From Jatrophihabitans telluris (GTDB taxonomy: Bacteria > Actinomycetota > Actinomycetes > Mycobacteriales > Jatrophihabitantaceae): a DNA stretch of 64,000 nt. The DNA lies in NCBI RefSeq assembly GCF_023516435.1, contig NZ_CP097332.1, positions 1,922,001 through 1,986,000 on the forward strand, given 5' to 3'. Of the stretch, positions 22,880 through 58,121 are shown one piece after another; position 1 is the stretch's first letter, and every line of letters starts with the position of its first letter. Made by a program: the position numbers and the translations under genes. Below the pieces are notes generated by a model. That model did not search any database. It saw only the letters and a program-made list of their open reading frames with translations, and was not told the origin of the DNA.

Positions 22880-22897
22880 GTGTGTCGTACTACACAC
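22880..22897. promoter_or_regulatory. Near-perfect 18-bp palindrome before the DUF5999 gene
   Basis: GTGTGTCGTACTACACAC: arms GTGTGT/ACACAC around a GTAC core, with a single mismatched pair. It ends 16 nt upstream of the DUF5999 start and overlaps its likely leader, suiting a repressor site. The GTAC core recalls GntR- or TetR-type operators, but the regulator is unknown. Confidence 0.5.
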
Positions 22898-22939
22898 CTA
22901 TGATCGTCCATTTTGAGAGCGATTTCAGCCATCTCGGCA

Positions 22940-35125: not shown

Positions 35126-35140
35126 GCCGTTCCGTGAGCG

Positions 35141-35188
35141 GCATCGGCATCGGCATCGGCACCGGCATCGGCATCGGCACCGGCATCG
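35141..35188. repeat. Hexanucleotide tandem repeat GCATCG/GCACCG, 8 units
   Basis: Order of units: GCATCG x3, GCACCG, GCATCG x2, GCACCG, GCATCG. It lies 55 bp upstream of the uvrB promoter element. In frame with uvrB it would read Gly-Ile/Gly-Thr, but the uvrB start is downstream. Confidence 0.9.
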
Positions 35189-35243
35189 GCCTCAGGCCGG
35201 GGACCCGGCGAGCAGCCGGCGTTCTCGCTCAGGGCGAACCATT

Positions 35244-35266
35244 GTGTCGGACCCTGGCCGTACGGT
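35244..35266 (+). promoter_or_regulatory. PafBC (RecA-NDp)-like promoter of uvrB
   Basis: GTGTCGGAC (35244-35252), 8 nt, TACGGT (35261-35266). The mycobacterial DNA-damage promoter consensus is TTGTCRGTG-N8-TAnnnT; six of nine upstream bases match and spacing is exact. Transcription would start near 35273, 65 nt before the uvrB ATG. Confidence 0.5.
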
Positions 35267-35337
35267 GGACTCATGCACGTTTCCTCCAGCAGCCGGTCGT
35301 TCCCGGCCGTTTTCAGCCGTCCCCGGCGAGGGTCTCT

Positions 35338-37506
35338 ATGAGGGTCAAGAGCGACATCGTCCCGTCCTCTGGCACCTTCGAGGTGATCAGCGAGTACTCG
35401 CCCTCGGGGGACCAGCCGACCGCGATTGCCGAACTCGAGAAGCGCATTCGAGCCGGCGAGAAGAACGTCGTACTGCTGGGTGCGACCGGCACCGGCAAGT
35501 CGGCGACCACGGCCTGGCTGATCGAGCGCTTGCAACGGCCGGCTTTGATCATGGCGCCGAACAAGACCCTCGCCGCACAGTTGGCCAACGAATTGCGCGA
35601 GATGCTGCCGAACAACGCAGTCGAGTACTTCGTCAGCTATTACGACTATTACCAGCCCGAGGCCTACGTCCCGCAGACCGACACCTACATCGAGAAGGAC
35701 TCGGCGATCAACTCCGAGGTGGAACGGCTGCGCCACTCGGCGACGATGTCGTTGCTCACCCGCCGCGACGTCGTCGTGGTGGCCACCGTTTCCTGCATCT
35801 ACGGTCTCGGCACCCCACAGGAGTACGTCGATCGTTCGGTGCGGCTGCGGGTCGGGCAGCAGATCGAACGGGAGAAGATCCTTCGTGGTCTGGTCGGCGT
35901 GCAGTACGCCCGCAATGATCTCGCCTTCACGCGTGGCACGTTCAGGGTCCGTGGCGACACCGTCGAAATCTTTCCGGTGTACGAGGAACTCGCCATCAGG
36001 GTCGAGATGTTCGGCGACGAGATCGAGCGGCTCTACTACCTTCACCCCCTTACCGGCGAGGTGGTCAGAGAGGTGGACGAGGTCTTCATCTTCCCGGCGA
36101 CCCACTACGCCGCAGGCCCTGAGCGGATGGAGCGCGCGATCGCGGGCATCGAGAAGGAACTCGAGGGCAGGCTGGCTGAACTCGACAGCCAGAACAAGCT
36201 GTTGGAATCGCAGCGGCTGAGGATGCGAACCACCTACGACATCGAGATGATGCGGCAGGTCGGTTTCTGCTCGGGAATCGAGAACTACTCGTTGCACATC
36301 GACGGCCGGGAACCGGGCAGCTCGCCGAACTGTCTGCTCGACTACTTCCCCGAAGACTTCCTGCTCGTCATCGACGAGTCCCACGTCACGGTTCCGCAGA
36401 CGGGCGGCATGTACGAGGGCGACATGTCCCGCAAGCGCACCCTCGTCGACCACGGTTTCCGCCTTCCCAGCGCGATGGACAACCGGCCGCTGAAGTTCGA
36501 GGAATTCGTCGAGCGGATCGGCCAGACCGTGTACCTGTCGGCGACACCCGGCAACTACGAGATGGACAAGGCCGGGGGTGAGTTCGTCGAGCAGATCATC
36601 CGACCGACCGGGCTGGTCGACCCGGAGGTCATCGTCAAACCCACCAAGGGCCAGATCGATGACCTGGTGCACGAGATCCGGCTGCGAGCCGATCGGAACG
36701 AGCGTGTGCTGGTCACGACGCTCACCAAGAAGATGTCAGAGGACCTGACCGACTACCTGCTCGAACTGGGGATCAGGGTTCGGTACCTGCACTCCGAGGT
36801 CGACACCCTGCGCCGGGTGGAGTTGCTCCGCGAACTACGCATGGGTGAGTACGACGTCCTCGTCGGCATCAACCTGCTGCGCGAGGGTCTCGACCTGCCG
36901 GAGGTGTCACTGGTCGCCATCCTCGACGCGGACAAGGAGGGCTTCCTGCGCTCGGGTACCTCGCTGATTCAGACGATCGGTCGAGCCGCTCGTAACGTCT
37001 CGGGCCAGGTGCACATGTACGCCGACCGCGTCACGCGATCGATGGAGCAGGCGATCGACGAGACGAACCGGCGCCGGGCCCATCAGCTTGCCTACAACGA
37101 GGCCAACGGCATCGATCCCCAGCCGCTGCGCAAGCGGATCGCCGACATCACCGACATGCTCGCGCGCGAGGCGGAGGACACCGATGAGCTCCTTGCTACG
37201 CCGGTCGGCGGTTCCGGTCGATCCCAGTCCCGCGGCAAATCCCCCGTTCCCGGGCGGGGTGGCCGCTCGACAGGCAGTTCTCGGGCACCGTCGGCCGGCG
37301 TGGTCGGCGTGGGTGCCCATGCCGACGGCAAGCTCGACATCGCCGAGTTGCCCAGAGCGGAGTTGGCCGACCTGATCCAGCAGCTCAATGATCAGATGCT
37401 CGGTGCCGCGCGGGAGTTGCAGTTCGAGGTCGCCGCCCGGCTACGTGACGAGATTCAGGAACTCAAGAAGGAGCTTCGCGGTATGGATGCGGCTGGGGTG
37501 CGATAG
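35338..37506 (+). CDS. uvrB: Excinuclease ABC subunit B
   Basis: 722 residues. Helicase-like damage-verification subunit of nucleotide excision repair. Walker [17 protein letters not shown], beta-hairpin region [17 protein letters not shown] with its Tyr row, DESHVTVPQ (DEAD-like motif II), [17 protein letters not shown] (motif VI), and the C-terminal UVR domain ([32 protein letters not shown]) that contacts UvrC/UvrA. ATG 35338 is preceded by GAGGG and begins the family N-terminus; the open frame extends 68 codons upstream through the hexamer repeat, which I reject. A Gly/Ser-rich insert precedes the UVR domain. Confidence 0.97.
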
Positions 37507-52841: not shown

Positions 52842-52864
52842 TTGTCGTAGGTCGCCATTACTCT
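52842..52864 (+). promoter_or_regulatory. PafBC (RecA-NDp)-like promoter of uvrA
   Basis: TTGTCGTAG (52842-52850), exactly 8 nt, TACTCT (52859-52864). Seven of nine upstream bases match TTGTCRGTG and the TAnnnT spacing is exact. Start of transcription is predicted near 52871, 43 nt before the uvrA GTG. Confidence 0.6.
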
Positions 52865-52884
52865 CGAACTGGTTCGAGTCGAAC
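52863..52884. promoter_or_regulatory. Cluster of LexA-like half-sites at the uvrA transcription start
   Basis: CTCGAAC-TG-GTTCGAG (52863-52878) followed by G-sharing TCGAAC (52879-52884): three TCGAAC/GTTCGA half-sites in 22 bp. The actinobacterial SOS box is TCGAAC-N4-GTTCGA; here the spacing is N2, so LexA binding is uncertain. Confidence 0.4.
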
Positions 52885-52913
52885 GCCCTATCTGAGTTCT
52901 GAGAGAGAAGTCT

Positions 52914-56108
<3,195 letters not shown>

Positions 56109-56139: not shown

Positions 56140-56162
56140 CTGTCGTAGCAGGTCATTAGGGT
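56140..56162 (+). promoter_or_regulatory. PafBC (RecA-NDp)-like promoter of uvrC, leaderless
   Basis: CTGTCGTAG (56140-56148), exactly 8 nt, TAGGGT (56157-56162), then 6 nt to the uvrC GTG. Shares TGTCGTAG with the uvrA element. The mRNA would start at the GTG. Confidence 0.55.
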
Positions 56163-56168
56163 TGATCC

Positions 56169-58121
56169 GTGGCTGATCCGTCGTCGTACCGCCCAGCGCC
56201 GGGCACCATTCCGGTCGAACCCGGGGTGTACCGGTTCCGCGACGCGTCTCGCCGGGTGATCTACGTAGGCAAGGCCAAGAGCCTGCGGTCGCGGCTCAAT
56301 TCCTACTTCGCCGACATCTCGGCGCTGCACCCTCGTACGCGACAGATGGTCACGACCGCGGCCAGCGTGGAGTGGACCATCGTCACGACCGAGGTCGAGG
56401 CACTGCAGCTGGAATACAACTGGATCAAGGAATTCGATCCACGCTTCAACGTTCGTTACCGTGACGACAAGTCCTACCCGTCCCTCGCGGTGACCCTCAA
56501 CGAGGAGTTCCCGCGCCTGCAGGTCATGCGCGGTCCCAAGAAGTCAGGGGTCCGCTACTTCGGGCCGTACGCACACGCCTGGGCGATCCGCGAAACTCTC
56601 GACCTCCTGCTCAGGGTCTTTCCGGCCCGCACGTGTTCATCCGGCGTGTTCAAACGCGCCGGTCAGATCGGGCGTCCCTGCCTGCTCGGCTACATCGGAA
56701 AGTGCAGCGCGCCGTGTGTCGGGCGCGTCACCGCCGACGAGCATCGACAGATCATCGACGACTTCTGTGACTTCATGGCGGGCAAGACCGACCGCATGAT
56801 CAGACGGCTGGAACGGCAGATGGCCGAGGCCAGCGATCAATTGGAGTTCGAGCGCGCCGCCCGGCTGCGCGACGATCTCGGCGCCCTGCGGCGATCGGTG
56901 GAGAAGCAGGCCGTCGTACTGACCGACGGCACCGACGCCGACGTCGTGGCCTTCGCCGGCGACGAACTGGCCGCCTCGGTCCAGGTGTTTCACGTGCGCG
57001 GCGGACGGGTACGCGGCCAGCGGGGGTGGGTGGTGGATTCGGCCGCGAGTGCCGAGGGCACCGTCAGCGAAGCGGAGCTCGTGGAACAGTTCATCACCCA
57101 GTTCTACGGCCCCGAGGACGCCGGCATCCCGCGGGAGGTTCTCGTTCCCGAACTGCCCGAGGACTCACCCGCTCTTACCGAATGGCTGACCCAGCGCCGC
57201 GGTTCGCGGGTGGCCCTGCGCGTGCCTCAGCGCGGTGACAAGAAGTCATTGATGCAGACCGTGCAGCGCAACGCCGAACAGGCTTTCCTGCAGTACAAGC
57301 TGAAACGGGCCAGCGACCTGACCGCGCGGTCACAGGCGCTGTCGGAACTGCAAGAGGCCCTCGACATGCCCGAAGCGCCGTTGCGCATCGAGTGCTTCGA
57401 CATCAGCCACGTACAGGGCACCAATGTCGTGGCGAGCATGGTGGTGTTCGAAGACGGCTTGGCACGCAAGAGCGAATACCGCCGCTTCAACATGCGATCC
57501 ACCGGCGGCGATGTGGACTGGATCGCCGAAGTGATCCGCCGTCGGTTCGCCCGCTACCTTCAGGAACGAACGATCGAGGCCGAGAACGAACGCGCGGAGA
57601 TCGAGGCCGCGGGCGGGCGTGCCCGCAAGTTCTCATACCCCCCCAACCTCGTCGTGGTCGACGGTGGTGCGCCGCAGGTCGCCGCGGCCCAGAACGTGCT
57701 GGTCGAGTTGGGAATCACCGACGTCACCCTGATCGGACTGGCCAAACGACTGGAAGAAGTGTGGGTGCCGGACGACGAGTTCCCAGTCATCCTGCCCCGC
57801 ACCTCTGAGGCGCTGTACCTGCTCCAGCGGGTGCGCGACGAGGCGCACCGCTTCGCCATCACCTTCCATCGGCAGAAGCGGTCCAAGGCGATGGTCGAGT
57901 CCGAACTCGCCGAGATCCCAGGCCTCGGGCCTGCTCGTCGCAAGGCGTTGTTGGCAGAATTCGCCAGCCTCAAACGTCTGCGCGAAGCCAGCGTCGCCGA
58001 GATCGCCCAGGTGCCGGGCTTCGGTCCCGACCTCGCGCTGCGGGTCCACGAGGCACTGCTCGCCGGCCAGGCGACGGTCGAACCAGCAGTCAACATGACC
58101 ACAGGTGAGGTCGTCTCCTAG
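56169..58121 (+). CDS. uvrC: Excinuclease ABC subunit C
   Basis: 650 residues. Makes both incisions in nucleotide excision repair. N-terminal GIY-YIG nuclease ([30 protein letters not shown]), Cys-containing linker ([17 protein letters not shown]), UVR domain ([28 protein letters not shown]), RNase H-like endonuclease domain with [23 protein letters not shown] and [13 protein letters not shown], and C-terminal helix-hairpin-helix pair ([28 protein letters not shown]). GTG fixed by the -10 box 6 nt upstream. Heads the uvrC-rapZ-yvcK-whiA group. Confidence 0.97.

Follow-up and report, generated by a model that had tools for sequence, protein, structure and literature searches.

Which signal turns on uvrA in Jatrophihabitans telluris, and is the gene controlled together with uvrB and uvrC? 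The window, i.e., the whole stretch of DNA that was analyzed, comprises 64,000 nucleotides (bases 1922001-1986000 of one 4,193,897-base contig, NZ_CP097332.1) and carries all three genes on the plus strand. The gene for UvrA (52914..56108, Pfam UvrA_DNA-bind and UvrA_inter) begins with a GTG at 52914, uvrC is found at 56169..58121 (Pfam UvrC_RNaseH_dom), and uvrB at 35338..37506. UvrB was confirmed by Pfam within the frame 35134-37506, and the start at 35338 was chosen by comparison with relatives. Two more UvrA-like genes are present in the same genome (G000:C1:97521 and 1416781). A sequence-only reading had proposed that uvrA is served by a LexA-independent DNA damage promoter of the PafBC type, and that the three genes form one regulon. 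The first proposal is supported by conservation with exact spacing, by the presence of pafBC homologues, and by enrichment of the motif before repair genes. We therefore assign 52842-52864, with a probability of roughly 90% on the basis of these comparisons, as a uvrA promoter of the PafBC-dependent (RecA-NDp) class, and this conserved promoter most likely switches uvrA on upon DNA damage.

The element TTGTCGTAGGTCGCCATTACTCT is situated at 52842-52864 on the plus strand upstream of uvrA. It is composed of a PafBC-type -26 element, TTGTCGTAG (52842..52850), which is supported by the core count in the window and by its conservation with exact spacing in the Jatrophihabitantaceae (the "host family" in the following), and the -10 hexamer TACTCT (52859..52864). 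The arrangement TTGTCGTAG-N8-TACTCT ends 49 nt ahead of the uvrA start codon. The letters, the coordinates, the spacing, and the match to the mycobacterial consensus at seven of nine upstream bases had all been given correctly before. Two hallmarks of PafBC-dependent promoters are thus found at uvrA, a TGTC(A/G) element at the fixed distance of N11 from TAnnnT and the lack of a -35 hexamer. The best match to TTGACA is 3/6 at the J. telluris locus, and 1-3/6 with spacers of 16-19 in the 21 aligned uvrA loci of the host family. Judged from the spacing, transcription would start at approximately 52871, and the leader of the uvrA mRNA would measure about 43 nt, with the purine-rich GAGAGAAG (52903..52910) as a probable ribosome-binding site. 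Directly 3' of the -10 hexamer lies a palindrome, CTCGAAC-TG-GTTCGAG (52863-52878).

The similarity to the consensus could be fortuitous. When up to two mismatches are allowed, TTGTCRGTG-N8-TAnnnT has four matches in the window versus 1.93 expected, a number that is also reached in 10 of 100 shuffles, so that the consensus score of the uvrA site alone is not significant. With up to three mismatches, 39 matches were found versus 26.7 expected, a number that two of 100 shuffles reach. The core TGTCG-N11-TAnnnT has four exact matches in the window versus 0.38 expected (0/100 shuffles reach four), and three of them stand upstream of uvrB, uvrA, and uvrC. In the whole genome, 40 matches to this core contrast with 22 matches to the reversed pattern. 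Although the consensus score alone would not exclude chance, a chance match at uvrA is ruled out by conservation and spacing. The fourth exact core of the window, at 22883-22904, has no obvious target, and the ORF filter gave no same-strand gene behind it.

Conservation was analyzed at two levels. For the host family, 24 genomes were searched, and 22 of them, J. telluris included, gave a uvrA locus with a readable start; G005 and G015 were left out, as they gave UvrA-like paralogues only. Of these 22 loci, 21 (including that of J. telluris) have the motif at the exact spacing before uvrA, and in the remaining locus (L168) it is present with a gap that is one nucleotide shorter. When the 21 loci are aligned, the conserved positions cluster in the motif, in the bases just before the -10, and in the -10 with the next two bases, and most flanking positions carry little information. 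It might be argued that uvrA has a normal SigA (housekeeping) promoter of the extended -10 type and that the TGTC element is incidental, and the family-wide conservation of the -10 and of the bases just before it (TCA) would be in agreement with this view. However, all of the 21 aligned loci have TGTC without variation and at a fixed distance, in stark contrast to the diverged flanks, and the same element recurs before repair genes (see below), which makes an incidental TGTC highly improbable. Within the genus of J. telluris ("same-genus"), all eight aligned loci read TGTCGTA, versus none of the 13 loci from other genera of the family. The two consensus mismatches at uvrA are thus a genus-level spelling. 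A narrower pattern, TGTCGTAG-N6-ATTAnnnT, is present in four of nine same-genus genomes.

For the second level, 74 of 80 named actinobacterial loci were used, after six with less than 300 nt upstream had been dropped. The stretch from 400 bases upstream to 60 bases inside the match was scanned, and first-order Markov copies gave the expectation. TGTC[AG]-N11-TAnnnT was found before uvrA in 49 of the 74 loci versus 0.21 expected (47/74 in a previous count over a somewhat shorter stretch), and 25 loci are without the motif. With the gap set to any other value from 5 to 19, no more than one sequence matched; the opposite strand gave no match at gap 11 and no more than one for each of the other gaps. 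Grouped by order, the motif precedes uvrA in 15/16 Mycobacteriales/Pseudonocardiales, 5/5 Micromonosporales, 4/4 Streptosporangiales, 4/4 Propionibacteriales, 3/4 Frankiales and similar, 9/15 Streptomycetales, 9/23 Micrococcales/Actinomycetales, and 0/3 others. Among the named loci listed, the nearest uvrA is that of a metagenome-assembled 'Pseudonocardiales bacterium' (87% identity). Two further records, titled Spirochaetaceae (L055) and Planococcus (L077), contain a uvrA that is 74% and 68% identical to that of J. telluris, respectively; they are probably misnamed or contaminated.

The base that follows TGTC(A/G) deserves comment. For Mycobacterium tuberculosis, the PafBC motif has been given as TGTC(GG/AG/AC)-N10-TA-N3-T (PMC8151990). 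Core and spacing are the same at J. telluris uvrA, but its TGTCGT lies outside the three variants named there, which have G or C at this position. A T follows TGTC(A/G) in six of the 49 motif-bearing named loci, five with TGTCGT, one of them same-genus (L004), and one with TGTCAT. We treat the T after TGTCG as a spelling variant and not as a defining feature, and the motif is also spoken of as degenerate in PMC8151990. For Streptomyces venezuelae, it was stated in 2022 that the motif was not found to be conserved in an initial search, and that it therefore had yet to be established whether Streptomyces possesses a response of this type (PMC9380542). The 9/15 Streptomycetales uvrA loci with the motif can be set beside the doubt expressed there. 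These nine loci, which have an exact PafBC-type core before uvrA, are L029, L031, L035, L036, L037, L040, L046, L047, and L051, and six of them have TGTCAGTGGCTCCCCCTA(G/C)TCT in common.

The genes behind the motif also point to DNA repair. All 40 core matches of the genome were placed against reading frames, 18 stretches were re-inspected, and the downstream gene was scanned with Pfam for 33 of the 40 (L102, L106, L109, L111, L085, L090, and the window site at 22883 were left out). Several target genes were assigned by eye, whereas the control genes came from a same-strand ORF filter; for the control, 21 of the 22 places of the reversed pattern were examined, nine of which gave ten proteins and 12 had no same-strand gene by this filter, several places lying within genes. 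Repair or recombination genes make up 12 of the 33 scanned targets versus none of the ten proteins of this small control. They encode UvrA, UvrB, UvrC, RecA, a RadA-like protein, NAD-dependent ligase, and PolA, and, in addition, an SbcD-like nuclease, a UvrD helicase, an HhH-GPD glycosylase, a PD-(D/E)XK nuclease, and a ResIII/DEAD helicase. A concentration before DNA repair genes, which is typical of PafBC-dependent promoters, is thus seen, with the reservation that the control is small. Random placement in the genome, which had been named beforehand as a possible refutation, does not seem to apply, and the matches include sites before recA, polA, and uvrABC. Most matches precede genes without a known repair role: of the 33 genes scanned, 21 cannot be counted as plain repair genes (among them those for histidinol dehydrogenase, an ABC transporter, PEP mutase, and PIG-L), and three of the 33 encode DUF222 proteins. 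Since the remaining targets are of other or unknown function, some of the matches are surely due to chance. A start codon is found 6-8 nt after the hexamer at 13 of the 40 matches versus 0 of 21 controls (strict filter), and therefore leaderless messages appear to be common in the motif set. Unlike these members, uvrA itself is leadered.

LexA is encoded elsewhere in the genome, which contains 20 exact LexA boxes (CGAAC-N4-GTTCG). Two of them have a PafBC-type motif at a distance of no more than about 80 bases, namely, before recA and before a SAV_6107-like HEPN gene. No exact box was found in the window, in a search for exact matches that would miss degenerate boxes, and in this respect uvrA differs from a member of the LexA (SOS) regulon. 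The label "LexA-independent" would mean just this, the absence of an exact box from the window. A dual control by PafBC and LexA can be envisaged, with LexA using the palindrome at 52863-52878, which shares its half-sites (CGAAC and GTTCG) with the LexA box, and in four named loci (L023, L027, L050, and L052) uvrA is indeed preceded by a LexA-like box in addition to the PafBC motif. But the spacer of the palindrome is 2 nt instead of 4 nt, and inspection of the other 20 aligned loci of the host family showed no such palindrome. With the wrong spacer and no counterpart in relatives the palindrome was ruled out as a LexA site, and dual control of J. telluris uvrA is very unlikely. Among the named loci, LexA-like palindromes precede uvrA in 11 of 74 versus 0.91 expected. 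In the Micrococcales/Actinomycetales they are present in seven of the 14 loci without the PafBC motif (L054, L058, L059, L060, L061, L062, and L065) and in none of the nine loci with it; the four loci with both elements belong to other orders.

The absence of pafBC from the genome had also been named as a possible refutation, but the two genes are there. Two adjacent WYL genes follow pafA, and dop, pup, prcB, prcA, and tatC belong to the same locus. The first of the two WYL genes encodes a PafB homologue (E 6.3e-74 to a chain in 7p5x, the solved PafBC complex) and the second a PafC homologue (E 1.7e-57 to a chain in 7p5x), so that pafB and pafC are situated beside pafA in the pup-proteasome locus, as befits a genome with PafBC-dependent promoters. 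A third WYL gene is located elsewhere. A different main regulator at this element, for instance ClgR, which reportedly recognizes the mycobacterial RecA-independent P1 consensus motif (PMC5656591), has only the slightest probability in view of the PafBC homologues and of a later review that assigns the motif to PafBC (PMC8223512). The mechanism of PafBC with single-stranded DNA and sigma adaptation is described in PMC11804915. By analogy with mycobacteria (PMC11804915; PMC8223512), single-stranded DNA would bind the WYL domains of PafBC after DNA damage, and the activated PafBC would sit between domain 4 of the housekeeping sigma factor and the uvrA promoter. PafB would read the -26 element, transcription would start about 7 nt after TACTCT, and UvrA would be raised without the need for LexA cleavage.

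UvrABC are listed in the PafBC regulon of Mycobacterium smegmatis, and RecA-NDp promoters are also ascribed to other Actinobacteria (PMC8223512); therefore, the J. telluris uvrA promoter is of an already known kind. It resembles the mycobacterial PafBC/RecA-NDp promoters in the motif, the spacing to TAnnnT, the target gene, and the localization of pafBC beside pafA in the pup-proteasome locus. In contrast to them, it has the T after TGTCG of its genus (TGTCGTAG), and its induction by damage is a prediction. In M. tuberculosis, UvrA protein was found to be overproduced without RecA (PMC8151990). In Streptomyces coelicolor, a RecA-NDp promoter was described in 2016 at SCO6735 and recA (PMC5087735), the same promoter class outside mycobacteria with targets that differ from J. 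telluris uvrA; SCO6735 was reported to be UV-inducible, whereas our view of uvrA comes from genome comparison. The uvrA gene of S. venezuelae is bound by LexA (PMC9380542). Damage control of uvrA would thus be common to both species, but by repressor release in S. venezuelae versus activation in J. telluris, which has no exact LexA box near uvrA. By comparison, the results extend a DNA damage circuit of mycobacteria to one more genus of actinobacteria and to many of the sampled groups of actinomycetes. Its steady members are uvrA and, within the host family, uvrB, and the results yield a concrete promoter set for testing PafBC outside mycobacteria. Related earlier work is reportedly that of Gamulin 2004 and Muller 2018. 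In those parts of the searched literature that were accessible, no description was found of the genus-level TGTCGTAG spelling, the taxon-wide uvrA count, or the contrast of uvrA and uvrB versus uvrC.

This contrast concerns the proposal that the three uvr genes form one regulon, which holds firmly for uvrA and uvrB but not in its strict form for uvrC. The motif before uvrB (35244..35266) has an exact core and is found in 20 of the 21 host-family genomes with a readable upstream region, J. telluris included (a second uvrB match in G019, L200, was left out, and L197 and L199 were unreadable at the start). The motif before uvrC (56140..56162) also has an exact core, and its hexamer ends 6 nt before the GTG, a leaderless spacing. 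Yet only two of 20 host-family loci, one of them that of J. telluris, have the strict motif before uvrC (L211, L217, L218, and L223 were unusable, and L224, a second uvrC-like locus of G006, is counted within the 20), and the strict three-gene regulon is weakened by this result. All 20 uvrC loci have TAnnnT 6-8 nt before the GTG, and a degenerate GTC[AG]-N11 form precedes this hexamer in 12 of them, versus 0 or 1 of 20 at other gaps from 5 to 19. Therefore, uvrC appears to retain a weaker form of the element.

At uvrB, the ATG at 35273 lies in another frame, which rules out an in-frame leaderless start for J. telluris. This ATG opens a mini-ORF of 22 codons (35273..35341) with leaderless spacing, the stop of which overlaps the uvrB start (ATGA). 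Such out-of-frame starts at leaderless spacing after the uvrB promoter are also seen in three relatives (L183, L185, and L192), and in all four cases the mini-ORFs, of 9-22 codons, have a stop that overlaps the uvrB start (ATGA or GTGA). A different arrangement is found in L194, in which the strict PafBC motif is absent upstream of uvrB. There, four consecutive mini-ORFs of 12 codons each extend from 203 to 63 bases before the uvrB anchor codons. The first begins 6 nt after a TAAACT hexamer, each shares 4 nt with the start of its successor, and the fourth one overlaps uvrB; the second to fourth are near-identical copies, 35 nt apart, and resemble the uvrB start. A literature search on uvrB with leaderless and upstream open reading frames retrieved no paper.

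A joint reading of these comparisons is possible, but we consider it rather doubtful as a whole: PafBC control of uvrA and uvrB might be an old actinomycete trait that was lost in part of the Micrococcales, with a LexA-like operator in the uvrA upstream region instead; the regulon of the host family might be biased to leaderless mRNAs; and uvrB might have gained a leaderless mini-ORF several times, once a chain of four, that passes ribosomes to uvrB via the ATGA or GTGA overlaps. If true, damage control would reach translation as well as transcription. A displaced uvrB start is also present in L198, where no mini-ORF start codon stands at leaderless spacing. The second codon of uvrB is AGG in all six loci with a displaced start (L177, L183, L185, L192, L194, and L198) and CGN in the 12 other readable loci, and three of the 21 are unreadable at this position.
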